Origin: Flavobacterium sp.
GTDB taxonomy: Bacteria > Bacteroidota > Bacteroidia > Flavobacteriales > Flavobacteriaceae
Direction: 5' to 3'
Length of the DNA stretch: 54,979 nucleotides
Assembly (NCBI RefSeq): GCF_024305175.1
Contig: NZ_JAMWYY010000019.1
Span: forward strand, 1 to 54,979
Both the position numbers and the translations under genes were made by a program. A model generated the notes under the pieces. The model was given only the letters and a program-made list of their open reading frames with translations. It did not search any database and was not told the origin of the DNA. This document shows, in pieces, positions 1-24,354 of this stretch. Each line of letters opens with the position of its first letter. Position 1 is the stretch's first letter.

Positions 1-2
1 TA

Positions 3-644
3 TGCCTAACAATGTTTGTATCCTGTAGCCAGGATGGAGATGCAAATGATGCCTCTCAAACTGAAATGACCGCAAAAAATGGCGGTTTATCGCAAAAGGA
101 TGTTGATGAATTGAAGGCATTGTGCGCTGGGTTCAGCACAAGTTCAGAATTTCTTACATATCGGTCTATGGCTGCTGAATTTGGCCATATGATGAATGGT
201 AACATTAACAAAAACTGGACGGCCAGAAAAGACTTAGAAACATGGCTTGCTGTTAATGTGGGGCAAACAAAATTTGCTACAGCACAGCAAGGCCTTGACA
301 TGTTTGATAATGTGACCGCTAGCGGCACAGTATTTTTAAATGCCAATACAAAGTTTTTTGATGCTTTGCCCGGAGCTTCACTTGGGCAGGTGCATATTAT
401 ATTAGAGCCTATTGCACCTGAACCTCCAGTTATGATAGCATATAATGAATGTATGGATGATTGTGTTGCTGCTGCCAGTTCAGCAATGGATTCTGCCCTT
501 ACAAGTTGGGAGTATTCCGTTTGGTTTGCCGGCAATTTACCTGCATCACAACAAGCAGCTTATTTAGCTTTTGCAGATGCTAATTTTGAATGGGCATTGG
601 ATAGTGCTGTATATTTTGGAAACCTTTGTTTAGATGGATGTTAA
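3..644 (+). CDS. Lipoprotein of unknown function, 5' end outside the window
   Basis: The reading frame is open to the left edge (codons for L and T precede the first visible Met), so the true start lies upstream of the window. The visible start reads LTMFVSCSQDGDAND, a lipobox-like stretch followed by an acidic run. This is what a signal peptidase II site with a surface-export signal looks like in Bacteroidota, so I infer that the cleaved Cys is the one in FVSC. The mature part (about 205 residues) is Ala-rich, probably helical, and has a Cys-containing C-terminus (NECMDDC, LCLDGC) that could form disulfides. I do not recognise the family. A hairpin terminator follows 32 bases after the stop. 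Confidence 0.7.
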   Translation, partial: CLTMFVSCSQDGDANDASQTEMTAKNGGLSQKDVDELKALCAGFSTSSEFLTYRSMAAEFGHMMNGNINKNWTARKDLETWLAVNVGQTKFATAQQGLDMFDNVTASGTVFLNANTKFFDALPGASLGQVHIILEPIAPEPPVMIAYNECMDDCVAAASSAMDSALTSWEYSVWFAGNLPASQQAAYLAFADANFEWALDSAVYFGNLCLDGC

Positions 645-8848: not shown

Positions 8849-9499
8849 ATGAAATCAATCAGTACTTATTTAAAAATGGCAGCACTGGTATTTTTTGCCA
8901 TGCTTGCTTTTGGTTGTGATGAGGAAGACCCCTCTGAAACCTTTAACCATGACGATACAAGCAATTATTACGGCGACTGGAAGCGCAGTAATATGGAATC
9001 GTATGTGCGTTTTGAATCTTCTACAGCAATTACCTGTGTGGGTGGGCAGGAAACCTTTGGGACTTTTAACGCATCAGAACCTTCTATGACATTTGTGGTG
9101 GGCGGAGAAACCATAAAATTTCCGCTTCAGTTTGATGGTGACAGTATGCTGGTAGGCGTTCCCGACCAGGCCATTGACACCCATAATGCACAGGTATATT
9201 ACCGCAGCGATAACTTTCCGTGTGATGGTGGAGGAAATGGCGGAGACGGTACAGGTAATGTTATGTTCTGGATATCATCTGATTTTGGGTGCGGCAATAT
9301 TTCGGTAACGGTTAACGGATACGGCGGCGCTATTACCGGATATTACAATTCGTCACCGGATTGCGGTGCATCGGGTGCAGCCAATTTTACCCTGCCTGCC
9401 GGCAGCTATAACTTTACCGCAAGCTGCTCCGGCTATAGTTGGGATGGTACAGTTACCGTATCGGAAGGTTCCTGTTATAAAATGCAGCTAACCCTTTAA
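8849..9499 (+). CDS. Lipoprotein of unknown function
   Basis: 216 residues from ATG 8849, giving MKSISTYLKMAALVFFAMLAFGC, a good lipoprotein signal with lipobox LAFGC; an in-frame TTG at 8828 lies almost on the promoter element and is less likely. The acidic start of the mature part (CDEEDPSE) suggests export to the cell surface. It has two parts: a strand-rich N-terminal domain with YYGDWKRSNM.. and, after a Gly-rich linker (GGGNGGDGTG), a C-terminal domain with four Cys resembling small all-beta carbohydrate- or ligand-binding modules. Family not recognised. It converges on the btuD-like gene with a 4-base overlap of the two ends. Confidence 0.75.
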   Translation: MKSISTYLKMAALVFFAMLAFGCDEEDPSETFNHDDTSNYYGDWKRSNMESYVRFESSTAITCVGGQETFGTFNASEPSMTFVVGGETIKFPLQFDGDSMLVGVPDQAIDTHNAQVYYRSDNFPCDGGGNGGDGTGNVMFWISSDFGCGNISVTVNGYGGAITGYYNSSPDCGASGAANFTLPAGSYNFTASCSGYSWDGTVTVSEGSCYKMQLTL

Positions 9500-10287
9500 C
9501 CGGGTTTAATGATAAAGCCGCCTTTTGCATTGTCAAAATAAATGTTTTTGTCATTAAAAAGGCGGTTAAAAATATCCATTTCCCTAAGCAGGGCAGGGGT
9601 GTTTTGTATTACACCCTCGCTTGTCATTACAATTACCTCATCGCTTAATTGCAATGCCAGGTCTAAATCGTGGGTAGAATATAAAATGCTCTTACCTGTT
9701 TCTTGGGTTAGCTGTTTTAAAAGCTTTAGCAGGCTTACTTTGTGGAGCAAATCAAGGTGTGTGGTAGGCTCATCCAGCACAATAATCGGGGTATCCTGCG
9801 CAAGGGCACGTGCTATAAGTACTTTTTGTAACTGCCCGTCGCTTATCTCATAATGCTTCTTATCTGCAAGGTGTTCCAGTTGCACCATTTGCAAAGCCTC
9901 GTTAGTTTTAGCGATATCCTCTTCTGCAAGCATACCAAGCCAGTTGGTATAAGGCTGCCTGCCCAGCGCAATAAGCTCATAAACTGGAAGATTGCTTGGC
10001 GGCAACGCTTCAGTTAAAACAATGCTGAGGTTTTGTGCAAGCGTTTTGGCAGAGTAGCTTCTTATATTTTTCCCGTTAAGCATTACCTCTCCCTGTAAAG
10101 GCTTTTGAATACCTGTAAGCGTGCGCAACAGGGTAGATTTACCAATACCATTAGCGCCAATAAGTGCGGTAAGGCAGCCTTTTTGAAGCTGTACCGATAC
10201 ATTGTTTGCTACAGCAGTAACTTCTTTACCGTTACGGTAGCCAATGCTTATTCTGTTAGCCGATAAAATTGTAACTTCCTCTTTCAT
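9496..10287 (-). CDS. btuD: ABC transporter ATPase, vitamin B12 importer type (BtuD-like)
   Basis: 263 residues. Walker A GANGIGKST (44-52), Walker B IIVLDEPTTHLD, H-loop STHD. The signature is ISDGQ rather than LSGGQ, and the Q-loop position reads SIVLTEA without Gln. The D-loop/VPVYELIALGRQP-type stretch (VYELIALGRQPYTNW) is characteristic of ATPases of the FecE/HmuV/BtuD group. As the last gene of btuF-btuC-btuD it should energise import of cobalamin across the inner membrane. On domain content alone a heme or siderophore system is equally possible; the divergent riboswitch-btuB-btuG operon makes B12 the best call. Confidence 0.8.
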   Translation of the reverse strand: MKEEVTILSANRISIGYRNGKEVTAVANNVSVQLQKGCLTALIGANGIGKSTLLRTLTGIQKPLQGEVMLNGKNIRSYSAKTLAQNLSIVLTEALPPSNLPVYELIALGRQPYTNWLGMLAEEDIAKTNEALQMVQLEHLADKKHYEISDGQLQKVLIARALAQDTPIIVLDEPTTHLDLLHKVSLLKLLKQLTQETGKSILYSTHDLDLALQLSDEVIVMTSEGVIQNTPALLREMDIFNRLFNDKNIYFDNAKGGFIIKPG

Positions 10288-10291
10288 AGCC

Positions 10292-11326
10292 CTATGAATA
10301 ACTTCTGTTACGTTTTCTCAGTAAAAGCCATATAACCACAGGCGCCCCTACTATAGATGTTACTGCGTTTATGGGCAGGGTAAGTTCACTTCCAGGTAAT
10401 TGGGTTACTATATCACAAACTAACAGCACTATAGCGCCGGATAACAACGTGCCCCAAAACAACACCAGATGATTGCTTGTCCGGAAGGCAAGTTTTGCCA
10501 TATGCGGCACAGCAAGCCCTATAAACGCTACAGGCCCGGCAAAAGCCGTAATAGAACCTGCCAGTATGCTCGTGGCAAGTATAATGATAAAACGTGCCCT
10601 GCCAAAGCTGATGCCCATGCTTTTGGCATAACGCTCGCCAAGCAACAGTGCATTAAGAGGTTTTATACAGGTTGCCGCAAGCACTATACCTGTTGCACAG
10701 GCGGCGGCAAGTATAGCAATGTTTTCCCACGACAGGCTGCCCAGGCTGCCCATTGCCCAAAAAGTGAATTTCTGTAATTGCTGTGCCGTGCTGAAATAAG
10801 TAAGCACACCAACTATTGCGCTGGTAAAGCTGCCAAACATTAGCCCTACTATAAGTATGGCCATAGTATCGCGCAGCCGTGCAGCTACTGAAAGCACTGC
10901 AAGCAGTACAAAAAAACTGCCCAGCATAGAGGCTGCCACGGTACCGTATGATGAGAGGAAAAGATCTTTTACCATTACGGGCAAAAAACCTGCACCTAAA
11001 ATTACAAAGGCAACCCCAAGGCTGGCGCCGGAGCTTAACCCCAGCACATAGGGCCCTGCAAGCGGATTACGGAAAAGGGTTTGCATCAGCAGGCCGCTTA
11101 AAGAAAGCCCCATACCTGCCAGAACGGCCGTTATAGCTTTTGGTAACCTGTAGTTTAATATAATAAACTCCCAAGTGGCTTTGCCGGCACCCTTGCCTGC
11201 AAGTGTGTTTACCACATCGTGAAAGGGAATGTTAACCGAGCCCAGGCTAAGGTTTAGCACAAACAGCAAGGCAAGGGCTGCAGTGAGCACACCAAACAAA
11301 ATGATATTTTTTTTTCCCGCCTGCAA
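10292..11326 (-). CDS. btuC: FecCD/BtuC-type ABC permease
   Basis: 344 residues and about ten transmembrane helices, the family norm. Characteristic blocks are present: YRLPKAITAVLAGMGLSLSGLLMQTLFRNPLAGPYVLG, the interface with the ATPase (GERYAKSMG) and FAGPVAFIGLAVPHMAKL near the end. It starts with TTG at 11324-11326 (TTG CAG GCG), because no in-frame ATG exists before residue 68, and it begins 6 bases after the btuF stop. Role: inner-membrane channel for cobalamin (or another TonB-imported metal chelate) delivered by the btuF product. It is separated from btuD by 4 bases, so the three genes form a tight operon. Confidence 0.85.
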   Translation of the reverse strand: MQAGKKNIILFGVLTAALALLFVLNLSLGSVNIPFHDVVNTLAGKGAGKATWEFIILNYRLPKAITAVLAGMGLSLSGLLMQTLFRNPLAGPYVLGLSSGASLGVAFVILGAGFLPVMVKDLFLSSYGTVAASMLGSFFVLLAVLSVAARLRDTMAILIVGLMFGSFTSAIVGVLTYFSTAQQLQKFTFWAMGSLGSLSWENIAILAAACATGIVLAATCIKPLNALLLGERYAKSMGISFGRARFIIILATSILAGSITAFAGPVAFIGLAVPHMAKLAFRTSNHLVLFWGTLLSGAIVLLVCDIVTQLPGSELTLPINAVTSIVGAPVVIWLLLRKRNRSYS

Positions 11327-11332
11327 ATGATA

Positions 11333-12472
11333 TTATTTTAGCTTTTCGAAGAATTGCAGTTCATAATCAGGTAACAGCCCGGAGTGCAGTATTTTCACAA
11401 GGTCTTTCAGTACCAGGTCGGGGCGGTTTGGGGCAAGTTCATAATAAATAACCCCGCCTGTTGCACCTTTCCTGCTGCTGAAAGAATATACCTCACCATT
11501 CTTATACGCCTTAAATTCGGTATAATGCGGGTTATCGTCCGCCATTTCCTGTAACGATGTAAACTGTCCCGGCCCAATCCAGTAGTCGGCATTATGTGCT
11601 TTTTCCAGTACGCTTTCAAAAGAAAGGGTGTGGCTGCCTGTGCCGCTGGTATCGCTCCACAGGTAGTTGGCATGGGCATCTTTTATAAAAAGGGCAGCCC
11701 AGCTACTACCCTGCGGCAGGTACCAATGGTCCTGATACATGGCACCGCTTAAAACAGTAGGTTTATTAGTGGCTTTCGCTGCAAGCGCAAGCGCGGCTTT
11801 ATAGTCGGTTTCTATCTTACTAAAAATGCTGTCGGCCTGTTTTTGCTTGCCGTAAAGCTCACCAAAAAACTTTATCCATTCGGCTTTGCCAAGCGGCGAT
11901 TGCTCTGTCCAGTCGCCATTATACAAAACAGTTATGCCGCTTTGCTGCAAAATATCCATTGTTTTGTTATCGCTGCTTATGCTGAAACCTACAACAACAT
12001 CAGGAGAAAGGTCTATCATTACCTCTGTGTTCATCCTTTCATTAGCGCCTGTTTCGCGTACTTTGCCTGCATTTATAAGCGCTCTTGTTTTTTCCGAAGA
12101 AATATAATCTGTCCCCGGAAAACCAATCAGTGAATTTTCCTCTCCAAGCATCTCTAAAGAGGGTATATGTGTGGTTGAGGTTACAACCACGCGCTTAACA
12201 GGTACCTGTACTGTAGTATAGCTTTTAAGGCTGTCGGGCACTATTGCGCCTTTTTGCTTCAGCACATAGGTAAAGCCTTCTTTGGCTTCGGGCCAGGGCT
12301 TGGTTACCTTAACAACAGAATAATCATCATACCGGTAAATAGCCAGCCCGCTTGCGTAACTAATGCTGTTACCTGCATTTTTGGGTGCATCTGTTGTACT
12401 TTGCTGTTCGTTTTTACAGCCATAAAGCAATGCAATAATAACAACGGAAAGTATGCTAATGTAGTTTTTCAT
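11333..12472 (-). CDS. btuF: ABC transporter substrate-binding lipoprotein, probable cobalamin binder (BtuF-like)
   Basis: 379 residues from ATG 12472, with signal MKNYISILSVVIIALLYGC (lipobox LLYGC). The two-lobed PF01497 fold is recognisable: VVVTSTTHIPSLEMLGEENSLIGF (first lobe start), SPDVVVGF, SGITVLYNGDWTEQSPLGKAEWIKFFG, a long connecting helix and DYWIGPG. It is a periplasmic-face, membrane-anchored receptor handing substrate to btuC. In Bacteroidota such proteins serve B12, heme or siderophores; here the context supports B12. A promoter element TACCTTTG ends 18 bases before the ATG, leaving no room for a second riboswitch on this side. Confidence 0.8.
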   Translation of the reverse strand: MKNYISILSVVIIALLYGCKNEQQSTTDAPKNAGNSISYASGLAIYRYDDYSVVKVTKPWPEAKEGFTYVLKQKGAIVPDSLKSYTTVQVPVKRVVVTSTTHIPSLEMLGEENSLIGFPGTDYISSEKTRALINAGKVRETGANERMNTEVMIDLSPDVVVGFSISSDNKTMDILQQSGITVLYNGDWTEQSPLGKAEWIKFFGELYGKQKQADSIFSKIETDYKAALALAAKATNKPTVLSGAMYQDHWYLPQGSSWAALFIKDAHANYLWSDTSGTGSHTLSFESVLEKAHNADYWIGPGQFTSLQEMADDNPHYTEFKAYKNGEVYSFSSRKGATGGVIYYELAPNRPDLVLKDLVKILHSGLLPDYELQFFEKLK

Positions 12473-12490
12473 AAAAAATATTGGCAGTTG

Positions 12491-12498
12491 CAAAGGTA
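12491..12498 (-). promoter_or_regulatory. -7 promoter element of the btuF-btuC-btuD operon
   Basis: On the minus strand TACCTTTG, an exact TAnnTTTG match, 18 bases before ATG 12472. A TTG lies 14 bases further upstream, closer than the usual 17-23. Confidence 0.45.
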
Positions 12499-12524: not shown

Positions 12525-12532
12525 TATATTTG
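12525..12532 (+). promoter_or_regulatory. -7 promoter element of the riboswitch-btuB transcript
   Basis: TATATTTG, an exact TAnnTTTG match. Initiation about 7 bases later (near 12539) places the transcript start exactly at the 5' edge of the riboswitch. Confidence 0.5.
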
Positions 12533-12537
12533 CGGCG

Positions 12538-12723
12538 GTTTAAGGTTGCACAGGTTGTATTAGTCTGTGCATTAAAAGGGAACCGGGTTAAAATCCCGGG
12601 CTGTACCCGCAACTGTAAGCTTACCCGTTTTAACGGGGGCTGTTGTTAACTGCATGCCACTGTGGCCACGCGCCATGGGAAGGAAAACAACAGTACGCAA
12701 GCCAGGAGACCTGCCTTATGCTG
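12538..12723 (+). ncRNA. Cobalamin riboswitch
   Basis: The hallmark B12 box GCCAGGAGACCTGCC is at 12701-12715, and the upstream core (AAAGGGAACCGGGTTAAAATCCCGGGCTGTACCCGCAACTG, about 12575-12615) has the hairpin CCGGG..CCCGG and the invariant CCCGCAACTGT. This is a class-I adenosylcobalamin-type aptamer. It ends about 40 bases before the btuB start. The intervening bases contain a possible weak hairpin GCC..GGC (about 12738-12755) that could mask the start region, so translational control is more likely than termination, since there is no T run. Expected effect: btuB and btuG are switched off when cobalamin is plentiful. Confidence 0.92.
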
Positions 12724-12764
12724 TAACCAATACAGGGCCTTCGGGAAAAAAGGCTCAGGAAAAT

Positions 12765-14591
12765 ATGGCTTTACAAAAACCTTTTTATTTTATTATGTTA
12801 TTGCTGTGCCCGTACCTTTGGGCGCAACAGGATAGTATTACCCGGCTTAAGGAGGTAATAATATCTGACACCCAGTTGCAGGATTTTTCGGGTACGCAGT
12901 CGGTTTTACGTATAAACGATTCTGTAATTATGCGTAACGGCTCTTCGTTAACCGACCTGCTACGCTACAACAGTGTGGTGTATTTTAAAGAAAACGGGTT
13001 GGGCATGGTTTCTTCGCCATCATTCAGGGGGACTACCGCGCAGCAAACTGCTGTTGTTTGGAATGGCATTAACATTAATTCACAACTCAATGGCCTTACT
13101 GATTTCAATACCATAAATACCCGCGACTTTAGCAGTATCGCCGTAAGGGCAGGGGGCGGAAGTGTTATATATGGCAGCAGCGCTATTGGCGGCAGCATCC
13201 ACTTAAATAACAATCTTACTTTTGCAGATACCATTGCCAACAGCGTATATGCAAACTATGGGAGTTACAACACTTTTGGCATTAATTATAATGCGAAAGC
13301 ATCTACAAAAAAAACGAGTTTAGATTTTAGTATTACTCACAACAGTTCTGATAACGATTATGAGTACCCGGAAACTGATGTTAATAATGAAAACGGTCAG
13401 TTTTATAACCTGAGTGCCAACCTTGCTCTCGGTTTTAAGCTGAATGAAAACAACATACTCCGCCTGTATAATTATATATATGACAGCGAAAGGCACTTTT
13501 CAGGCACGGTAAGCGCGCCTTCATTAAGCAAATACCGCGACAGGAACTCGCGCAACATGGCTGAGTGGCTGGGTACATACGGGCGTTTTACATCTAAGCT
13601 TAAAGCTGCACTGCTTACAGAGCATTATAAGTATTATGCACGTGCATTAAACCCGGACTATACTTTTGGAAAAGTTAATACCCTGATTGGCAGGTATGAT
13701 ATTGCCTATCAGGCAGCTAAAAATATAAAGCTGAATGTTATAGCCGATATTACCCATAATGACGGTAACGGTTCTGATATTGAGGAGGCATCCCGCACGG
13801 TTACATCTTTTAGCTTTTTGATGCAACATAATGTTACAACAAGGTTGTATTATGAAGCCGGACTTCGCCGCGAGATAACCGATGCTTATGATAGCCCTAT
13901 GCTTTTTTCGGCTGGTGCCCGTTACAGTGTGTCCGATTTTTATGCGGTAAAGCTTAATGCATCACGAAACTTCAGGATTCCTACGTTTAACGACCTGTAC
14001 TGGGTGGGCAGCGGCAACCCCTATTTAAAGCCTGAAAGCTCTTACCAGGCAGAAATTGGTAATGAATTTACTTTTAACGCCCTAAAGCTATCGGTAACTG
14101 GCTATTACATTAAGCTGAAAGATATGTTGCGGTGGATTCCCGTAAATAACGTTTGGCGCCCGGAAAATGTTGGAAAGGTAAATACCTATGGCGCTGAAGC
14201 TATTGCAGGCTGGCAGAAAAGCTTTGGTAACAGCAATCTTACTGCCGATGCTACCTATGCCTATACTGTTTCGAGGGAAGACGGCAGCAGCAACCAGCTT
14301 ATATATGTGCCTTTGCATAAAGTTACTGCCTCAATAGCCTACGGCTACAAAAACGCATCTGTTTACTACCGCCACCTGTATAACGGCAGCGTATTTACCA
14401 CATCTGATAACAGCGATGAGGTAGAAGCCTATAATGTGGCAACACTTGGAGCAGAATATACCATCGGTATTTGCGGTGGGCTTACTGTGGGTGTACAGGC
14501 GCACAACCTTTTTGATGCAGCCTATGAAAATGTTACCAAGCGCCCTATGCCGGGCAGGAATTACAATATGTACCTTAACTTCAAATTTTAA
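12765..14591 (+). CDS. btuB: TonB-dependent outer-membrane receptor for cobalamin (BtuB-like)
   Basis: 608 residues from ATG 12765, which gives the signal peptide MALQKPFYFIMLLLCPYLWA; an in-frame ATG at 12654 falls inside the riboswitch and is rejected. The plug domain (SLTDLLRYNSVVYFKENG, SSPSFRGTTAQQTAVVWNGI, IAVRAGGGSVIYGSSAIGGSI) is followed by a beta-barrel of about 22 strands with conserved SRNFRIPTFNDLYWVGSGNPYLKPE and the aromatic C-terminus YLNFKF. It lacks the carboxypeptidase-like extension common to SusC proteins, so it resembles the compact BtuB receptors. The riboswitch in its leader is the main reason to assign vitamin B12. Confidence 0.88.
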   Translation: MALQKPFYFIMLLLCPYLWAQQDSITRLKEVIISDTQLQDFSGTQSVLRINDSVIMRNGSSLTDLLRYNSVVYFKENGLGMVSSPSFRGTTAQQTAVVWNGININSQLNGLTDFNTINTRDFSSIAVRAGGGSVIYGSSAIGGSIHLNNNLTFADTIANSVYANYGSYNTFGINYNAKASTKKTSLDFSITHNSSDNDYEYPETDVNNENGQFYNLSANLALGFKLNENNILRLYNYIYDSERHFSGTVSAPSLSKYRDRNSRNMAEWLGTYGRFTSKLKAALLTEHYKYYARALNPDYTFGKVNTLIGRYDIAYQAAKNIKLNVIADITHNDGNGSDIEEASRTVTSFSFLMQHNVTTRLYYEAGLRREITDAYDSPMLFSAGARYSVSDFYAVKLNASRNFRIPTFNDLYWVGSGNPYLKPESSYQAEIGNEFTFNALKLSVTGYYIKLKDMLRWIPVNNVWRPENVGKVNTYGAEAIAGWQKSFGNSNLTADATYAYTVSREDGSSNQLIYVPLHKVTASIAYGYKNASVYYRHLYNGSVFTTSDNSDEVEAYNVATLGAEYTIGICGGLTVGVQAHNLFDAAYENVTKRPMPGRNYNMYLNFKF

Positions 14592-14597
14592 TATAAC

Positions 14598-15668
14598 ATG
14601 AAAATCAACAAACTTTTATTAATGGCTTTTGCAGGTTCGTTATTCTTCGTATCCTGTAGCAGTGATGATGATTCTTCGTCAGATGGGCCTAAGGGCAATT
14701 ATGACAATGGTGTGCTTATACTCAATGAGGGTGGATTCCAGCAAGGCAATTCTACTATTTCATTTCTGTCAAAAGATAATATACTTCAGAATAATATCTT
14801 CAGCACTGTAAATGGTACCGATTTAGGCGATACAGGGCAGGATATAGGCCTTAATGGTGAATATGCTTACATAGTAGTGAACAACTCTCACAAAATAGAG
14901 GTGGCTAACCGTTACACTATGGAAAAAGTAACCGCTATAACTAATGGTTTAGACAATCCGCGTTATATAGCTTTTGAAGACAACAGGGGCTATGTTACCA
15001 ACTGGGGCGACCCTAATGATACACAGGATGATTTTGTTGCTGTTATAGATCTTTCTACTAACACGGTTACTGCAACTATACCTGTAGCAGAAGGGCCTGA
15101 GCGTATTATTGAAGAAAACGGCAAACTGTATGTGGCACACAAAGGCGGATATAGTTATGGTAATACTATCAGCGTTATTAATGCAGCTACCAATACCGTA
15201 ACAGCAACAATAGCAGTAGGGGATGTGCCGGATGCCATTGAAGAACAAGATGGCAGGCTGTATGTTATGAGCGAAGGAAAGGCTGCATGGTCTGGTACTG
15301 AAACAGGCGGCAGGCTCACGGTAGTTAACCTTTCTGATAATAGTGTTGTAACAACATACAACTTAGCACAGACTGCCCACCCTTCCAATATGGTAATAGA
15401 AGATGAAAAGCTGTATTATACTGTAGATTCTGATATATATGTAATGAACCTTACGGATAATGCTTTGCCATCTACTCCGCTGTTCAGCATAGCTGATCAG
15501 GGTGTTTATGGTATTTATGCATTAGAGGTTGAAGACAACAGGATTTATATAGGCGATGCGGTTGATTATAACTCAAACGGTAAAGTATATATTTACTCTT
15601 TAACCGGTATGTTACAAAACTCTTACACTGTAGGGGTTATACCCACAGGTTTTTATTTTAATGATTAA
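14598..15668 (+). CDS. btuG: Surface lipoprotein with YncE/DUF5074-type beta-propeller (BtuG-like)
   Basis: 356 residues. Signal MKINKLLLMAFAGSLFFVSC, then SSDDDSSSD right after the Cys, which is a good Bacteroidota signal for export to the cell surface. The mature part consists of repeats of the YncE propeller kind (DNPRYIAFEDNRGYVTNW, FVAVIDLSTNTVTATIPV, PERIIEENGKLYVAHKG, ISVINAATNTVTATIAV, PDAIEEQDGRLYVMSEG), about seven blades. BtuG of Bacteroides is a surface propeller of this class that captures cobalamin for BtuB and is encoded beside it. This gene starts 6 bases after btuB, under the same riboswitch, so I infer the same job. The exact ligand is not proven. Confidence 0.8.
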   Translation: MKINKLLLMAFAGSLFFVSCSSDDDSSSDGPKGNYDNGVLILNEGGFQQGNSTISFLSKDNILQNNIFSTVNGTDLGDTGQDIGLNGEYAYIVVNNSHKIEVANRYTMEKVTAITNGLDNPRYIAFEDNRGYVTNWGDPNDTQDDFVAVIDLSTNTVTATIPVAEGPERIIEENGKLYVAHKGGYSYGNTISVINAATNTVTATIAVGDVPDAIEEQDGRLYVMSEGKAAWSGTETGGRLTVVNLSDNSVVTTYNLAQTAHPSNMVIEDEKLYYTVDSDIYVMNLTDNALPSTPLFSIADQGVYGIYALEVEDNRIYIGDAVDYNSNGKVYIYSLTGMLQNSYTVGVIPTGFYFND

Positions 15669-17322: not shown

Positions 17323-17838
17323 ATGAATCAGTCAGAATTCATAAAAACCATAAACCCTTTTAAAGACAGGTTATTTCGCCTGGCGAAAAGGCTTTTGGTT
17401 AGCACCGAAGAGGCTGAAGATGCCACGCAGGAGGTTTTGGTACGGTTGTGGAACAACAGGGGTAAGCTAAAAAGCTACAACAGTGTAGAGGCACTGGCGG
17501 TAACCATAACAAAGAATTACTGCCTGGACCAGCTAAAAAGCAAGCGTGCTACAGAAATGCGGATTGTGCATTCTAACTATACAGACAGGGATGCAGGTTT
17601 GCAGCAGCAGGCAGAAGACCGCGACAGCTGGAGCTGGGTAGAAAAGATTATGGATGAACTGCCGGAGCAACAAAAGATAATTGTGCAGCTAAGGGATATA
17701 GAGCAGTATGAATTTGAAGAAATTGCAAAAATGATGGATATGAACGAAACGGCGGTGAGAGTCGCCCTGTCGAGAGCAAGGAAAGCAATAAGAGAAGAAC
17801 TCACCAAAAAACACAGCTATGGAATTAAAAACAATTGA
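17323..17838 (+). CDS. RNA polymerase sigma factor, ECF-type
   Basis: 171 residues with just the two sigma-70 regions. Region 2 is DRLFRLAKRLLVSTEEAEDATQEVLVRLWNNRGKL (about residues 14-48) plus VEALAVTITKNYCLDQLKSKR. Region 4 is LPEQQKIIVQLRDIEQYEFEEIAKMMDMNETAVRVALSRARKAI (helix-turn-helix, about residues 114-160). Downstream, overlapping by 20 bases, is a gene for a one-pass membrane protein that is probably its anti-sigma partner. The operon then continues with three DUF4252-type genes, which are likely targets. Confidence 0.9.
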   Translation: MNQSEFIKTINPFKDRLFRLAKRLLVSTEEAEDATQEVLVRLWNNRGKLKSYNSVEALAVTITKNYCLDQLKSKRATEMRIVHSNYTDRDAGLQQQAEDRDSWSWVEKIMDELPEQQKIIVQLRDIEQYEFEEIAKMMDMNETAVRVALSRARKAIREELTKKHSYGIKNN

Positions 17839-18292
17839 AATACTACTGGATAAATATTTTGAAGCAGAAACCAGTACTGCCGAAGAAAATGTGCTTAAGG
17901 CCTATTTTTCTTCTGCCGGGGTGGCGCCGCATCTGGAGCAGTACAGGCCAATGTTTGGATATTTTGCCGGAGAGGCAACACAAAAATTTGAAAAAACCGT
18001 ACCATTAAAAACTAAAAGACGTAAAGTAGCGTGGTTATCGGCAGCAGCAGGTTTTGTATTGCTATCGGGGCTTATTGCCCTTCTTAACAGGCAGCCGGAG
18101 CCATCGGGCGCGCTTGGCACTTATGACGATCCTGAAGTAGCCTTCAGGGAAACGCAAAAGGCGCTTAACATGCTTTCCAGCAATGTAAATGTTGGTGTTG
18201 CAGGCATGGGGTACCTTCACGAATATGAAAAAACTAAAGACAAAGTTTTTAAAGACCATCACAATCAAAAATCAAAAAGCAAGAAAAAATGA
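17819..18292 (+). CDS. Putative anti-sigma factor, single-pass membrane protein
   Basis: 157 residues. A helical cytoplasmic N-terminal domain (MELKTIEILLDKYFEAETSTAEENVLKAYFSSAGVAPHLEQYRPMF) with the LDKYFEAETS..EE..L..YF pattern common at the start of Bacteroidota anti-sigma proteins, one transmembrane helix (about residues 70-90) and a short extracytoplasmic tail ending in a Lys-rich stretch. The gene overlaps the sigma factor by 20 bases, which implies translational coupling and stoichiometric synthesis. Its role is inferred from this position and architecture; it lacks the Cys/His zinc motif of ZAS-type anti-sigma factors. Confidence 0.7.
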   Translation: MELKTIEILLDKYFEAETSTAEENVLKAYFSSAGVAPHLEQYRPMFGYFAGEATQKFEKTVPLKTKRRKVAWLSAAAGFVLLSGLIALLNRQPEPSGALGTYDDPEVAFRETQKALNMLSSNVNVGVAGMGYLHEYEKTKDKVFKDHHNQKSKSKKK

Positions 18293-18756
18293 AAAAATTT
18301 ATAATTACCGCCGCATTAGTTGCCATGCCTTTACTGGGTTTCGCACAAAAAGAATTTGACAAGTTTGAAGATAAAGACGGGATAGACTCTGTAATTATCC
18401 GTGAAAAACTGATGGATATGCTGGGCGATATAGAGATTTCCGGTACGGAAGAGGCCAAGGGTTATCTTGACAATGTAAAGTCTATGGAAAGCCTTAGGGT
18501 ATTTACCACCAAAGACAGGCAATATGCATTGGATATGGAAACTACGGTTGCTTCCTATCTTAAAAAGAAGCGCATGGAAGAGCTGATAAGCATAAACAGC
18601 GATGGCAAAAATTTGAAAATATACACTGCGTCGGGAACTGAGCCATCTGATATTAAAGAACTACTTTTGCTCTCTAAAGATGCTAAAGAAAATGAAGTTG
18701 TTCTTGTAACATTTGTGGGCGACATAAGCCTGAAAGATAAAAAGAATATTAATTAA
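18289..18756 (+). CDS. DUF4252 protein, secreted (first of three)
   Basis: 155 residues. Signal peptide MKKFIITAALVAMPLLGFAQ, then the DUF4252 pattern: FDKFEDKDGIDSVIIREKLMDMLGDI, a long middle with SLRVFTTKDRQYALDM, and KNLKIYTASGTEPSDIKELLLLSKDAKENEVVLVTFVGDISL. The start overlaps the stop of the putative anti-sigma gene by 4 bases. It is a periplasmic or outer-membrane associated protein of unknown function, strongly similar in layout to the product of the next gene, so the two are tandem duplicates. Confidence 0.8.
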   Translation: MKKFIITAALVAMPLLGFAQKEFDKFEDKDGIDSVIIREKLMDMLGDIEISGTEEAKGYLDNVKSMESLRVFTTKDRQYALDMETTVASYLKKKRMEELISINSDGKNLKIYTASGTEPSDIKELLLLSKDAKENEVVLVTFVGDISLKDKKNIN

Positions 18757-18787
18757 TACCTGGCAACAGGTTTGTATACACATAAAA

Positions 18788-19312
18788 ATGAAGAAGATAT
18801 TTTTTGTACTGACAATTATGATGATGCCTGTATTGCTGGCTGCGCAATCAGCTTTTGATAAGTTTGACGGCAAAGACGGGGTAACTGCTGTTATTGTAAA
18901 TAAAAAGATGTTTGAGCTTATGGGCAATGTAAAGCTGGATGCCAAAGATAAAGAGGCCCAACAGTACCTTAGCCTTGTTAAAAAGCTGGACAACCTTAAA
19001 GTATTTACCACTACTGATGCTAAAGCAGTAGCAGACATGAGGGCAACTGTTAGCTCTTACCTTAAAAAGTATCCGCTGGAAGAGCTTATGCGCGTTAATG
19101 ACAGCGGCAGGACGATAAAAATATATGTAAAGTCGGGGGCCAGATCATCTCAGGTTTTAGAGCTGCTTATGTTTATTGACGGCGGTAAAGATGATACGGT
19201 ACTGATGTCGCTTACCGGTAATTTTGACCTTAGCGAACTTTCTGTACTAACCGATAAAATGAACCTGCCGGGCGGTACAGAGCTGCGCAAGGCATCTAAA
19301 AAATCTAAATAA
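18788..19312 (+). CDS. DUF4252 protein, secreted (second of three)
   Basis: 174 residues. Signal peptide MKKIFFVLTIMMMPVLLAAQ; then SAFDKFDGKDGVTAVIVNKKMFELMGNVKL, LKVFTTTDAKAVADMRATV, IKIYVKSGARSSQVLELLMFIDGGKDDTVLMSLTGNFDLSELS. It aligns along its whole length with the preceding gene product, so this is a duplication. It starts 31 bases after its neighbour and its stop codon overlaps the start of the third gene (TAATG), so all are cotranscribed. Function unknown; part of the sigma factor operon. Confidence 0.8.
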   Translation: MKKIFFVLTIMMMPVLLAAQSAFDKFDGKDGVTAVIVNKKMFELMGNVKLDAKDKEAQQYLSLVKKLDNLKVFTTTDAKAVADMRATVSSYLKKYPLEELMRVNDSGRTIKIYVKSGARSSQVLELLMFIDGGKDDTVLMSLTGNFDLSELSVLTDKMNLPGGTELRKASKKSK

Positions 19313-19860
19313 TGAGAATAGCTGTTTTTATTGCAGGTTTACTGGCAACACTTTTAACATCGTGCAGTAACGAGCCATCGCTGCAAAAGTATTTTGTAGA
19401 GCATACCGAAGAAAAGAATTTCATGACGCTTGATATTGCGCCTAACCTCCTTAAGTCTGACAGTATAAAGCTGTCTGCTGATGAAAAGGCCGCATTAGAG
19501 TCGGTTAAAAAACTTAATGTGTTGTTCTTTCAAAAAGATTCATTAGGCACCAATGCACCACAATATGAAAAGGAAAAGAAAAATGTAAAAGAGCTTCTTA
19601 AGGATGAGCAGTATGATGAGCTGATGCACTTTGGCTCTAACAAAGCAGGGGTATCTGTACATACTGTTGGTGAGAATGACGATATAGACGAATTTGTGCT
19701 TTTTATGCATCAGGAAGAAAATGGCTTTGGTGTAATACGGGTGTTAGGAGATAACATGAACCCAAACCATGCTTTACAGATGATGGAACTTTTGCAGAAA
19801 GGAAACCTCAATATAGAACAGTTTAAGCCCATACAGGAAATGATGGTACCTAAACAGTAA
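19312..19860 (+). CDS. DUF4252-like lipoprotein (third of three)
   Basis: 182 residues, lipoprotein signal MRIAVFIAGLLATLLTSC. The mature part has the same order of elements as the two preceding proteins (a start helix, VKKLNVLFFQKDS, then GVSVHTVGENDDIDEFVLFMHQEENGFGVIRVLGDNMNPNHALQMMEL) but is more divergent. It is translationally coupled to the preceding gene by a one-base stop-start overlap. Unlike the other two it is lipid-anchored. The C-terminus reads LQMMELLQKGNLNIEQ, a helix. A strong hairpin terminator 15 bases on ends the sigma operon. Confidence 0.75.
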   Translation: MRIAVFIAGLLATLLTSCSNEPSLQKYFVEHTEEKNFMTLDIAPNLLKSDSIKLSADEKAALESVKKLNVLFFQKDSLGTNAPQYEKEKKNVKELLKDEQYDELMHFGSNKAGVSVHTVGENDDIDEFVLFMHQEENGFGVIRVLGDNMNPNHALQMMELLQKGNLNIEQFKPIQEMMVPKQ

Positions 19861-19928: not shown

Positions 19929-20402
19929 TCAGCGTTTGTAAAGGCTGTGGGTGCCGTTTAATATGCTTATTGCAGTTTGCACCTGCTTGTCAATATCTTT
20001 AATGCGGGCAATGCTGTAAATCAGCGTTCTCTTTTTGCCGGGAGTAAAGGCATCAAATCTTTTTTTGGCTTCATCATCCTGTGCCAGGAGTGCTTCAAGC
20101 ACTTCAGGAATTTCAACACCAAGAGGGTCAGGATCAGTTTCAATGGTATATTGCACTATATTACCAGGCTCCCTGTTAAGCGTCTTCATGTGCTTACCGC
20201 TAATGATTATAAAGTAATTGCCGTTACCCATGTGGTTAAGCCCGCATCTTAAAACCAGTTTATCATCAAGTGTGCAGATAAGCCTCGTTTTCTTTTTTTC
20301 AGGCAGTTTTTCAACAATGGCGGCATCAACGGTTAGGTAAAAGTAGCCGCCCTTGTTTTTAGGGAGTTTCTCAACCTGCTGCTTACCCTTATCCACTATC
20401 AT
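19929..20402 (-). CDS. YdeI/OmpD-associated family protein with DUF1905 domain
   Basis: 157 residues. The N-terminal half (VEKLPKNKGGYFYLTVDAAIVEKL...TRLICTLDDKLVLRCGLNHMGNGNYFIIISGKHMKTL) is a DUF1905-type beta domain; the C-terminal half (ALLAQDDEAKKRFDAFTPGKKRTLIYSIARIKDIDKQVQTAISIL) matches the YdeI/OmpD-associated helical module. No signal peptide, so cytoplasmic. The ATG overlaps the last base of the crtZ stop codon, so it is translated as the last gene of the carotenoid operon. A link to carotenoid synthesis is not known and may be coincidental. Confidence 0.8.
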   Translation of the reverse strand: MIVDKGKQQVEKLPKNKGGYFYLTVDAAIVEKLPEKKKTRLICTLDDKLVLRCGLNHMGNGNYFIIISGKHMKTLNREPGNIVQYTIETDPDPLGVEIPEVLEALLAQDDEAKKRFDAFTPGKKRTLIYSIARIKDIDKQVQTAISILNGTHSLYKR

Positions 20403-20851
20403 TATTTAGCTTCTCTGTAATACTTCCACGGCACTATAAGCATACCAAAGCATTCGCCGTCTCCTTTGCCCAGATGCTTGTGGTGCATTTTATGGGCCCT
20501 TCTCAGTGCTTTTGCATAACGGTTATTAGCATTCCTGAATATTTTAAAGCGCTGGTGTATAAAAATATCATGCACTAAAAAATAAGTAAGCCCGTAAGCA
20601 AAAATACCGAGGCCTATTGCAAGGCCTATATCCAGTATATTATTCTTCCACAACAGGAAGAAACCAATACTTACCAATGCATAAAAGATAAAAAAGGTAT
20701 CGTTGCGTTCAAACCACGATTCGTGGTCTTTGCGGTGATGGTCTTTGTGCAGGCTCCATAAGAAACCATGCATAACATACTTATGCGTAAACCAAGCCAT
20801 AAACTCCATCATAAAGAAGGTAAGTACAAAAACCAGTATATAAATCCACAT
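20402..20851 (-). CDS. crtZ: Beta-carotene hydroxylase, CrtZ type
   Basis: 149 residues, integral membrane, fatty-acid-hydroxylase superfamily. The di-iron histidines lie in HKYVMHG (His23, His28), HKDHH (35-39), HDIFIHQR (His94, His99) and HKMHHKH (120-126), as in CrtZ from carotenoid producers. It hydroxylates beta-ionone rings (beta-carotene to zeaxanthin through cryptoxanthin), using O2, in the membrane. It starts 10 bases after the crtB stop. The operon contains no lycopene cyclase gene, so its substrate must come from an enzyme encoded elsewhere. Confidence 0.9.
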   Translation of the reverse strand: MWIYILVFVLTFFMMEFMAWFTHKYVMHGFLWSLHKDHHRKDHESWFERNDTFFIFYALVSIGFFLLWKNNILDIGLAIGLGIFAYGLTYFLVHDIFIHQRFKIFRNANNRYAKALRRAHKMHHKHLGKGDGECFGMLIVPWKYYREAK

Positions 20852-20861
20852 AGTTATTTTT

Positions 20862-21701
20862 TTAAACGAAATTAAAGCGGCAGTCTAAATAGCATTTAGC
20901 AAGTAAGCCCACCTTTTGGTAATCCGGTACACGTATTCGTGTAGACCTTATTTTTAACGGCGGGGTGTTCTTTAGCTTTTTAAGGAGCTTTTTGTAATAT
21001 ACATAAGCTGTATATACCCCGAACTTCGCCTCTGCAGGCAGCATTATTATACCTTTAAAACCTTCATTAAGGTCGGCTTCAATTTCTTCAATTATCTGCC
21101 TTTTTATATTATCATCCATTTCCTGAAGGTTAAGTGCCGGGAAATAATTCCTGTCAAGCCCTTCTGTATCGTCTTTAAGGTCACGCAAAAAGTTAATCTT
21201 CTGGAATGCAGACCCTAATCGCATTGCAGGCTCCTTCAGTTGCTCGTATTTTACTTCATCATTGCCCGTAAACACTTTAAGGCACATAAGACCAACTACA
21301 TCTGCCGAGCCGTAAATGTACTCATTATATTCTGCAACATTTTTATAATCTTTCTTGTAAAGATCAGCCCTCATGCTTTTCATAAAGCTGTCTATAAGAT
21401 GCCTAGGTATCTTATACTTTGCCACCGTATGCTGAAAAGCATTAAGCACAGGGTTTAGGCTTATCCCGTCACGAAGGGCATTATCCATATCATTTTCAAA
21501 CAGCGCAAAAAGCTGCTCTTTATCATAATCATGAAAAGTATCCACTATTTCGTCGGCAAGCCTTACAAAACCATAAATGTTATATATGTCCTGCCTTATG
21601 CGCGGGCTAAGCATGCGCACAGCAGCCGAAAACGAAGTGCTGTAGGCCCGCGTTATGCTCCGGCTGCATTGGTTAGAGATGGTGTCAAAAATTGCTTTCA
21701 T
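20862..21701 (-). CDS. crtB: Phytoene synthase
   Basis: 279 residues, the normal length. Two Asp-rich motifs: DEIVD (50-54) in YGFVRLADEIVDTFHDYD and DLKDD (174-178) in GSAFQKINFLRDLKDDTEG. A squalene/phytoene synthase fold throughout. It condenses two geranylgeranyl diphosphates to phytoene at the membrane surface. The ATG overlaps the crtI stop by four bases (ATGA), so it is translationally coupled to crtI. Standard order in Flavobacteriaceae clusters: crtI, crtB, crtZ, all on the minus strand. Confidence 0.93.
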   Translation of the reverse strand: MKAIFDTISNQCSRSITRAYSTSFSAAVRMLSPRIRQDIYNIYGFVRLADEIVDTFHDYDKEQLFALFENDMDNALRDGISLNPVLNAFQHTVAKYKIPRHLIDSFMKSMRADLYKKDYKNVAEYNEYIYGSADVVGLMCLKVFTGNDEVKYEQLKEPAMRLGSAFQKINFLRDLKDDTEGLDRNYFPALNLQEMDDNIKRQIIEEIEADLNEGFKGIIMLPAEAKFGVYTAYVYYKKLLKKLKNTPPLKIRSTRIRVPDYQKVGLLAKCYLDCRFNFV

Positions 21702-23194
21702 AGTGTTTCTTTTACAGTTACCTGTGGTTCTTTTGTCAGTTGTTTGGCTATCAATCCTGCAGCCAGTTTACCCGAAATAAGGGCAGGCGGTACACCAGGC
21801 CCCGGCACGGTTAGCTGCCCGGTAAAAAACAGGCCTTTTACTTTAGGGCTTTTAAGTTTTGGCCTTAAAAAGGCAGTTTGCAATAATGTGTTGGCAAGCC
21901 CGTATGCGTTGCCTTTATATGAGTTATAATCTTCAATAAAATCATTTACGCAAAAAGATTCTTTAAAGATGATATGCTGTTTTACAGCTTGTCCTGTTAA
22001 TGATTCCAGGCGTGTCATTATTTTTTCAAAATATTTCTCTCTTAATTCTGCCGTGTCTTCTATGCCAGGAGCCAGCGGTATTAAGAATATAGCAGCCTCT
22101 TTGCCTTCAGGAGCCGCATTAGCATCGGTCTTAGACGGAAAACTGGCGTAGAACAACGGTTCATCGGGCCACCTTGGGTTGTCATAAATATCTTTTGCAT
22201 GTATATCAAAATCGGTGTCAAAGAATAAGGTATGGTGCTCTGCGTTTTCAATCTTCTTGTCAATGCCTACGTAAAACAGCAGCGATGATGGCGCAAATGT
22301 GCGTTTTTCCCAATAGTTTTCGCTGTAGTTCCTGTATTGTTCATCAAGCAGTGTTTCGGTATGGTGATAATCAGCTCCGCTTACAATAAGGTCGGCTTCA
22401 ATTTTCTCTCCGTTAGCAATAAGCCAGGAAGCATTACCGTTTTCTACACCAATTTTTTCTATTGCTGCATTGGTAACCATTTTTACGCCAAGCGATGTTG
22501 CCAGTGTTACCATGCCTTTAATAACACTATACATACCGCCTTCGGGGTGCCACGTGCCCAGACCGAAGTCAGCATAGTTCATAAAGTTATAAAAAGATGG
22601 TGTATCTGATGGCTTTGCACCTAAAAAAAGTACAGGAAATTCTAATATCTGTACCAGTTTTTTATTTTTAAAGCGTTTGCGTACATCTTTTGATATATTC
22701 CCAAAGAACTGCCCCAGCTTCATCATTGTTTTTGGGGTAACTAATTCCAGCGGAGATTCGCCCGGCCTGTACACCAGGTCTTTTATAGCGATGTCATAAT
22801 TGCTTTTAGCCTCATCAAGAAACTGTTGCAGTGCTTCACCGCTATCAGGTTCTATGCTTTCAAATGTTCTTACTATTTCATCGGGGTTAGCAGCAATATC
22901 TATATAATCATGTTCTGCAAAATACACCCTGTATGCAGGAGACAGCTTTATAAGATTATAATAATCTGAAGGTTTTTTATCAAAATCAGCAAAAAAACGT
23001 TCAAAAACATCCGGCATCCAGTACCACGTGGGGCCCATATCAAATGTAAATCCGTCTCGCTTTAGTTGCCTTGCCCTTCCGCCAATGGTAGCATTCTTCT
23101 CATATATTGTAATATCATGGCCACTTTGCGCCAGATAACATGCAACAGCAAGCGACGAAAATCCGGAACCTATTATTTTTATATTTTTACTCAT
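21698..23194 (-). CDS. crtI: Phytoene desaturase
   Basis: 498 residues from ATG 23194; the open frame reaches 23242, but that stretch is AT-rich leader. FAD motif IIGSGFSSLAVACYLAQSGHDITIYEK near the N-terminus, then NATIGGRARQLKRDGFTFDMGPTWYWMPDVFERFF, and the C-terminal GLFFTGQLTVPGPGVPPALISGKLAAGLIA typical of CrtI. It catalyses desaturation of phytoene, probably to lycopene, at the membrane with FAD. It lies 55 bases downstream of the MerR regulator gene, and the leader repeats TTTGTT-like words that could be an operator. Confidence 0.93.
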   Translation of the reverse strand: MSKNIKIIGSGFSSLAVACYLAQSGHDITIYEKNATIGGRARQLKRDGFTFDMGPTWYWMPDVFERFFADFDKKPSDYYNLIKLSPAYRVYFAEHDYIDIAANPDEIVRTFESIEPDSGEALQQFLDEAKSNYDIAIKDLVYRPGESPLELVTPKTMMKLGQFFGNISKDVRKRFKNKKLVQILEFPVLFLGAKPSDTPSFYNFMNYADFGLGTWHPEGGMYSVIKGMVTLATSLGVKMVTNAAIEKIGVENGNASWLIANGEKIEADLIVSGADYHHTETLLDEQYRNYSENYWEKRTFAPSSLLFYVGIDKKIENAEHHTLFFDTDFDIHAKDIYDNPRWPDEPLFYASFPSKTDANAAPEGKEAAIFLIPLAPGIEDTAELREKYFEKIMTRLESLTGQAVKQHIIFKESFCVNDFIEDYNSYKGNAYGLANTLLQTAFLRPKLKSPKVKGLFFTGQLTVPGPGVPPALISGKLAAGLIAKQLTKEPQVTVKETL

Positions 23195-23249
23195 TTTGTT
23201 TATCAAAAATAAAAATTTGTTCAACAAATAAATTATAAACAAATGTTAA

Positions 23250-24149
23250 TTAAAGTTGCAGGCTGAAGTTTTCTATAGTGTCGAAAATTCTTATCCTTTC
23301 GTTTAACTTGTCTTCCTGAATGAATTGCCCTATACGCCCAAATATATATAGTTGGGTTTCGTTATCATTCATTACTTCTTGTTTTAATTCATCAATATAG
23401 TCATTTACCTGATCCATAGCCGGCTCTACAGTCATGTAAGTTACAAAAGTTATGTTGTCAAAATACTTTTTTACATCTTTAAGGCTTTCCAACGGAACGC
23501 TTTCTCCTAAAAAGATGGACTTATAACCATTAAGCGCCAATTCATAATTAATAAACATAAGCCCAAGCTCATGTATCTCATTCATAGGGAGGTAGAGTAT
23601 AAATATACGGTCGTGCCTGCGTGGTGGCTCTAACAAAAGTTTCTCTATATTAGAGGCCAGTTTTTGTTTTATCAGGAAGCTGATAAAGTGTTCATGTGCA
23701 GGTGATATGGTGTTTGTTTGCCATAAAAATCCTATTTCTCCTAATAACGGTATAAAAAATTCATAAAATATCTCCCGGAACGATTTTTCCTGCAAAACAG
23801 TATTGTAGGTGTTAAGGAAAAGCGACTGGTCGAAATTCATCATGGCGAGCTTAAAATTATTAAGCACATGGTTGGCCATGCTTTTGTTGCTTAATATCTC
23901 TTTTACCAGCACCGGTAGTTTTTCTTCGGGCATTTTGGATATTGCTGAAATTTTATAACCAAAGTTGTGAAGCGTGGTTATATTAAGCAGCTTTTGTAGG
24001 TTGCCAATGTCATAATACCGTATATTGGTTTCGGTACGCATAGGCTCCAGTATATTATATCGCTTCTCCCAGATGCGTATAGTATGCGCTTTGATTCCTG
24101 AAAGGTTTTCCAGGTCGCGTATATTGAATTTGGTTTTTACGTTGTTCAT
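23250..24149 (-). CDS. MerR-family regulator with B12-binding domain, CarH/LitR-like photoreceptor
   Basis: 299 residues from ATG 24149. An N-terminal MerR winged helix (FNIRDLENLSGIKAHTIRIWEKRYNILEPMRTETNIRYYDI), a four-helix middle and a Rossmann-like cobalamin domain. The middle holds W143-x9-E153-H154, exactly the W-x9-EH signature of CarH photoreceptors, and the B12 loop carries EIHELG (ExHxxG, His193 as lower cobalt ligand), followed by NGYKSIFLGESVP. In characterised CarH proteins, adenosylcobalamin makes the dark tetramer bind operators and light breaks it, releasing carotenoid genes. Since the gene precedes crtI on the same strand, the same logic is likely here; not tested. Confidence 0.85.
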   Translation of the reverse strand: MNNVKTKFNIRDLENLSGIKAHTIRIWEKRYNILEPMRTETNIRYYDIGNLQKLLNITTLHNFGYKISAISKMPEEKLPVLVKEILSNKSMANHVLNNFKLAMMNFDQSLFLNTYNTVLQEKSFREIFYEFFIPLLGEIGFLWQTNTISPAHEHFISFLIKQKLASNIEKLLLEPPRRHDRIFILYLPMNEIHELGLMFINYELALNGYKSIFLGESVPLESLKDVKKYFDNITFVTYMTVEPAMDQVNDYIDELKQEVMNDNETQLYIFGRIGQFIQEDKLNERIRIFDTIENFSLQL

Positions 24150-24170
24150 TGTTTTTGTAAAATGATTAAA

Positions 24171-24178
24171 CAAATATA
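24171..24178 (-). promoter_or_regulatory. -7 promoter element before the CarH-like regulator gene
   Basis: Minus-strand TATATTTG, an exact TAnnTTTG match, 21 bases before ATG 24149. A TTG lies 14 bases further up. AAACAAAT-type words occur both here and before crtI and are candidate operator half-sites for the regulator. Confidence 0.45.
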
Positions 24179-24354
24179 TTGATTAATTTTAACAATTGCA
24201 TTTTTTTTACAAAAGTTTTTGATAGAGTGCATGTTAGGGCAATTATGCTTTAAAAATACAGTATTGGCAAGGGTAAATATTAAATCTTGTAGTTGAGGGT
24301 GTTAAGAAATGCTAAACCCTTAGTAGTTAATATTTTTTTTACGGAAATAAAGTG

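Follow-up and report, generated by a model that had tools for sequence, protein, structure and literature searches.

The window analysed here, the whole stretch of 54,979 nucleotides at positions 1 to 54,979 of contig NZ_JAMWYY010000019.1 (assembly GCF_024305175.1, Flavobacterium sp.), carries at the head of the carotenoid genes crtI-crtB-crtZ a gene for a MerR-family regulator that likely works like CarH, the adenosylcobalamin (AdoCbl) photoreceptor. We consider it fairly probable that this protein is a light- and AdoCbl-dependent repressor of the crt genes, and the timing of pigment production in these bacteria is likely set by light and B12 jointly; its cofactor, light response, repression and autoregulation are what we infer. 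In the proposed scheme, the diverged CarH-type regulator would likely bind AdoCbl with the helical bundle on one side and the Rossmann-like domain on the other and, in the dark, would sit on operator repeats that cover the regulator promoter as well as the crtI promoter. Light would break the cobalt-carbon bond, upon which the regulator is predicted to leave the DNA, and the carotenoid genes would be expressed under light or B12 shortage.

The regulator gene is read from 24149 down to 23250, the plus strand of this interval being stop-ridden; a second open start, a TTG, exists at 24173, but it is the ATG at 24149 that fits the relatives. A sequence-only reading of this DNA had pointed to a MerR N-terminus, W143, E153-H154 and EIHELG with H193, all of which were confirmed in the sequence and by profiles (table 1). 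Indeed, W143-x9-E153-H154 forms the Wx9EH motif, and E191-I-H193-E-L-G196, which begins 37 residues past H154, corresponds to D/ExHx2G with the lower axial histidine. Thermus CarH (5c8d) is matched by the regulator (phmmer E 1.2e-12), with the motifs aligned position for position, and by the family profile (E 3.7e-21). The comparison of a structure prediction with Thermus CarH, proposed in the same reading, gave an AF2 model that matches the CarH fold, including the Rossmann-like cobalamin domain, at 18% identity in the structural alignment, in agreement with its description of the protein as quite divergent. The NCBIfam CarH model (NF052513) scores 66.3 bits on the regulator, below its curated cut-off of 400, and 65–124 bits on eight other homologues. 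A PADLOC scan gave no match.

A homologue was found in 120 of the 149 genomes sampled across the family of this bacterium. W143, E153, E191 and H193 are invariant in the 122 homologues of these genomes and H154 is kept in 109, and the motifs are thus more than chance. A wider set holds 264 distinct homologues (after removal of L196, a longer copy of the L050 locus, and nine further identical proteins), comprising 235 with crtI or crtB in reach and 29 without crt in reach, the reach being set by the stretch fetched (approx. 1.5 to 5 kb per side). Within the C-terminal 210 positions, G140, W143, E153, L187, E191 and H193 are invariant in all 235 crt-linked homologues, whereas W143 or H193 is lost in 6 of the 29 others, a comparison that ignores relatedness and in which the 29 include deeper branches. 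The fold therefore appears to tolerate such losses, except at the head of a crt operon. The six proteins concerned (L176, L177, L183, L185, L186 and L188) are candidate cobalamin-free relatives.

The gene order is kept as well. The sequence-only reading placed the regulator directly upstream of crtI-crtB-crtZ, and this holds: the crtI ATG (23194, read from the sequence) lies on the same strand, 55 bases past the regulator stop. In the main clade (n = 110; the split of the 122 homologues into these and 12 others follows score order), the gene directly downstream is crtI in 101 cases, crtB in six and neither in three, and crtI directly follows the regulator in 76 of 80 loci from named genomes. 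Among the 235 crt-linked homologues, 26 have their crt gene in reach though not directly downstream. The position of the regulator at the head of crtI-crtB-crtZ is thus kept across the family. At L075, L088, L090, L092, L103 and L106, crtB comes directly after the regulator, with no crtI match within the fetched stretch. Further away, with a threshold of E 1e-20, a match is present in 63 of 296 genomes from across the phylum, and a second family of the order has only distant matches, in 4 of 80 genomes, all four of one genus.

Both the regulator and crtI are preceded by paired repeats (table 1). At the regulator promoter, the TATATTTG part fits what we take to be the Bacteroidota -7 box, TAnnTTTG; TATTTTTG, between the two elements of the crtI gap, fits a -7 box too, and the second of these elements (TTGATAAACAA) adjoins the crtI start. 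As the repeats overlap TAnnTTTG, their placement suggests that both promoters are repressed. In 133 of 208 upstream regions, TTTGTT stands exactly 25 bases before the ATG, within a TAnnTTTGTTTAAC-like context; it is absent from 25. Likewise, TTGTTNAACAA occurs in 86 of 150 regulator-crtI gaps against 0.3 expected (order-1 Markov shuffles), and 81 of these 150 gaps of relatives hold paired TTGTTNA elements exactly 21 bases apart. This placement also bears on the idea that the protein activates the crt promoter in the classic MerR manner, which we hold to be highly improbable: proteins of the MerR family are often activators, but here repeats and presumed -7 box overlap, with no long-spacer placement. 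Moreover, those CarH/LitR proteins with this architecture that have been characterised act as repressors (PMC6739363, PMC9304148; papers are cited here from excerpts of their text), and the TnnACA core reported for CarH repeats (PMC9304148) is contained in TTTAACA of the candidate operators. A wider regulon was considered and rejected, five of the eight paired sites in the genome lying elsewhere, the same number as in a reversed-pattern control; the single-site pattern gave 42 matches versus 27 in the control. One of the five sites elsewhere, L278, sits between amylase-like and acyl-CoA dehydrogenase-like genes.

AdoCbl is plausibly available to the bacterium, since the genome carries genes for cobalamin adenosyltransferase (C26) and methylmalonyl-CoA mutase, together with a riboswitch-led B12 import locus. 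In this locus the BtuB-like receptor more likely starts at 12765, because the listed open reading frame start (12654) falls inside the riboswitch, and the FecCD/ABC set likely provides its btuFCD partners. The proximity of the btu and crt loci was rejected as a functional link: the fetched stretch contains both btuB and btuG for 1 of 20 relatives (L290), and for L203 the 5-kb flank includes btuG without btuB. The import locus near crt is thus local, not general. The co-occurrence of regulator and adenosyltransferase was likewise rated weak as proof of AdoCbl use. Among mutase-less genomes of the family, adenosyltransferase (PF01923) is present in 6 of 7 with the regulator and in 0 of 5 without (Fisher p 0.015), several of these six being close relatives; in the second family, taken as a control, 11 of 19 mutase-less genomes carry it and none of the 19 has even a distant regulator homologue. 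Class II ribonucleotide reductase was discarded as another AdoCbl user, the NrdJ cut-off being passed by only 1 of 19 genomes (G147); the remaining matches are sub-cut-off and class I-like, and other AdoCbl enzymes were searched by PF02310 only.

Several observations weigh against a repressor that depends on light and AdoCbl. Pfam B12-binding (PF02310) is not matched by the regulator at E 0.1, although the match is weak also in 5 of the 6 other homologues that match it. The two motifs that the sequence-only reading took to define CarH do not suffice, as the classic hallmarks are Wx9EH and D/ExHx2G/P-x41-SxT/V-x22-27-GG (PMC9304148). Here the second half reads x40, T237-Y-M239, x31 and G271-R272, and GG occurs in 5 of the 235 crt-linked homologues. 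The histidine that follows the tryptophan in CarH becomes the upper ligand after light, and it is found in many, though not all, light-responsive members. At this position (Thermus His132) the regulator has Q144, and its crt-linked homologues Gln in 212 and His in 3 of 235; Thermus H132A mostly remains tetrameric after light (PMC10442372). At position 154, the same 235 proteins have His in 221, Arg in 11, Ser in 2 and Gln in 1. The association of adenosyltransferase with the regulator weakens to a Fisher p of 0.09 when pooled. Finally, neither adenosyltransferase (PF01923, PF02572) nor mutase was found in G064 (L050; 99% complete, motif intact), and adenosyltransferase was likewise not found in G008, G048 and G062. 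In a FastTree tree, all 13 Arg154/Ser154 cases fall inside one group of 15; these crt-linked proteins (L073, L076, L077, L080, L082, L084, L093-L096, L104, L105 and L107) have Asn at residue 217 and are natural variants at the position of Thermus H142.

The missing GG, the unmatched PF02310 and the G064 genome would suit a B12-independent regulator of the CarA or class II LitR kind, in which the fold is kept, crt is repressed and the signal comes from a partner protein; indeed, CarA retains its B12 motif without needing B12, and class II LitR relies on a LOV protein for its light signal (PMC9304148, PMC9758184). We regard this as unlikely, as CarA lacks the Trp of Wx9EH (PMC9304148), whereas W143, E153 and H193 are here without exception in the crt-linked set. 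Quite unlikely, too, is a B12 sensor without light, in which AdoCbl would keep the repressor on DNA and pigment would rise when B12 is short. It would account for a kept pocket with Gln at the light-linked position, for the poor dissociation of Thermus H132A after light (PMC10442372) and for an import locus in the same window, but the Trp and Glu contacting the adenosyl group are invariant and that locus accompanies crt in a single relative of 20. Furthermore, the light response is retained with Arg (CtMerR), Gln (SasPcob) or Tyr (AbDPcob) at the His132 position (PMC11796333), so that a light response without bis-His ligation is possible.

Returning to the light- and AdoCbl-dependent repressor, the earlier suggestion that its photochemistry or oligomer state may differ from known forms is well founded. 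The Thermus residues Arg176 and Asp201, which we take to be a salt-bridge pair of the dimer interface, correspond to I192 and S217 here (Arg in 0 and Asp in 2 of the 235 crt-linked homologues). Because the cobalt-capturing histidine is Gln and this salt bridge is missing, release would have to proceed without bis-His ligation, via a water/hydroxo-cobalamin state or some different rearrangement; a light response of this kind, if present, would be a distinct photocycle. The published mining signature (GxxW, EH, GxxH, GxxxP; PMC11796333) is incomplete as well: GxxW, EH and GxxxP are present and GxxH reads N190-E-I-H193, G190 occurring in 27 of the 235 crt-linked homologues. As that mining started from a B12-binding InterPro entry and used GxxH, it would probably miss this Bacteroidota family. 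The earlier CarH-type label is supported by domains, motifs, predicted fold, synteny and operator-like repeats, and not by two motifs as a sufficient definition. Because some of the tested features of the published definition are lacking, the regulator would not be filed as CarH/class I LitR and is best called a homologous Bacteroidota variant. More tentatively, it may belong to a branch of B12 photoreceptors that spans the Bacteroidota and escapes published signatures. This branch would run the carotenoid (and so perhaps retinal) supply of Flavobacteriaceae-type bacteria through a different photocycle, in which Gln replaces the bis-His switch, the oligomer has another interface and TTGTTNAACAA sites spaced by two helical turns are bound in a dimer-like manner.

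With CarH/class I LitR of Thermus thermophilus (5C8D-5C8F), Myxococcus xanthus and Bacillus megaterium, the regulator shares the order of MerR, helical bundle and Rossmann-like domains, Wx9EH, ExHxxG with the lower-ligand His, adjoining carotenoid genes and operator-like promoter repeats. Unlike them, it has Gln at His132, no Arg at the 176 position, G-R for GG and N-x-x-H for GxxH, and its repeats recur at 21–22 bp instead of as tandem 11-bp repeats. The overall architecture and a carotenoid or light regulon are also those of Myxococcus CarA and Pseudomonas class II LitR; in the excerpts, however, CarA is without the Trp and its neighbours and class II LitR reportedly keeps the helical B12 domain only, whereas the cofactor-contacting residues are invariant here. 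Photocobilins (8J2W), unlike this regulator, are described there as binding bilin too and not as MerR regulators, and neither they nor CtMerR of Chloracidobacterium thermophilum (8JBS/8JBT) is described as regulating a Bacteroidota crt operon. The myxol cluster of the flavobacterium Nonlabens spongiae, likened by description only, lists a MerR-family gene first, as in this crt cluster; the excerpt names that gene without B12 or light control (PMC11855829). MliR of Bizionia, MerR-like and without a B12 domain in the excerpt (PMC9478572), was set aside as not relevant. In Chryseobacterium lacus, which may belong to the second family, carotenoids are light-induced and the authors found no car or lit gene (PMC7064467); it would neither support nor refute a light-responsive repressor here, and indicates that some light-induced crt clusters do without this regulator. 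In excerpts of the open-licence literature, no light or B12 regulator is named for a Flavobacteriaceae-type crt operon.

Among named relatives, Flavobacterium zepuense, F. salilacus and F. suaedae come closest (78–81% identity), which places the window in Flavobacterium. The regulator and the four genes that follow it all lie on the minus strand, the DUF1905/OmdA gene being possibly the last of the crt operon; the crtZ-type hydroxylase, named by position and domain, has no NCBIfam match. In the opposite direction, a gene for a typA/bipA-like GTPase begins at 24382. At 17323-19860 on the plus strand, translations alone indicate a gene resembling RNA polymerase sigma factors, followed by a gene for a membrane-anchored protein and three small genes whose products look secreted or lipoprotein-like.

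Table 1. Features of the window and domains of the regulator (residue numbers refer to the protein).
Feature	Position	Strand	Basis
CarH-like MerR regulator gene, 299 aa	23250..24149	minus	domains, CarH matches, AF2 model
Regulator, DNA-binding domain	residues ~1-75		Pfam MerR_1 54.3 bits, cut-off 21.6
Regulator, helical bundle (W143, E153, H154)	residues ~92-172		Pfam B12-binding_2 (PF02607) 37 bits, cut-off 23
Regulator, Rossmann-like domain (H193)	residues ~178-299		AF2 model, fold match
Likely promoter and operator of regulator gene	24166..24195	minus	TTGTTAAA, then TATATTTGTTTAA, 22-base spacing
Likely operator between regulator and crtI (55-base gap)	23196..23227	minus	TTGTTGAACAA and TTGATAAACAA, 21 bases apart
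crtI, phytoene desaturase type	21698..23194	minus	NCBIfam CrtID 741.5 bits, cut-off 640
crtB, phytoene synthase	20862..21701	minus	Pfam SQS_PSY 161.3 bits; overlaps crtI
crtZ-type hydroxylase	20402..20851	minus	Pfam FA_hydroxylase 49.4 bits
DUF1905/OmdA protein	19929..20402	minus	overlaps crtZ-type gene
Cobalamin riboswitch	12526-12732	plus	Rfam RF00174, 104.7 bits
BtuB-like receptor	12765-14591	plus	best solved match, chain of BtuBG complex 8p97
BtuG-like beta-propeller lipoprotein	14598-15668	plus	best solved match, other chain of BtuBG complex 8p97
Periplasmic binding protein, FecCD permease, ABC ATPase	9496-12493	minus	divergent from receptor

Bacteria of the Flavobacteriaceae type, most of them yellow, abound in seas, lakes and soils. 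If our reading is true, one widespread photoreceptor would couple pigmentation in these bacteria to sunlight as well as to a vitamin that many of them must import. It would also provide a natural set of CarH proteins without the bis-His step, in which what drives release from DNA would become testable.
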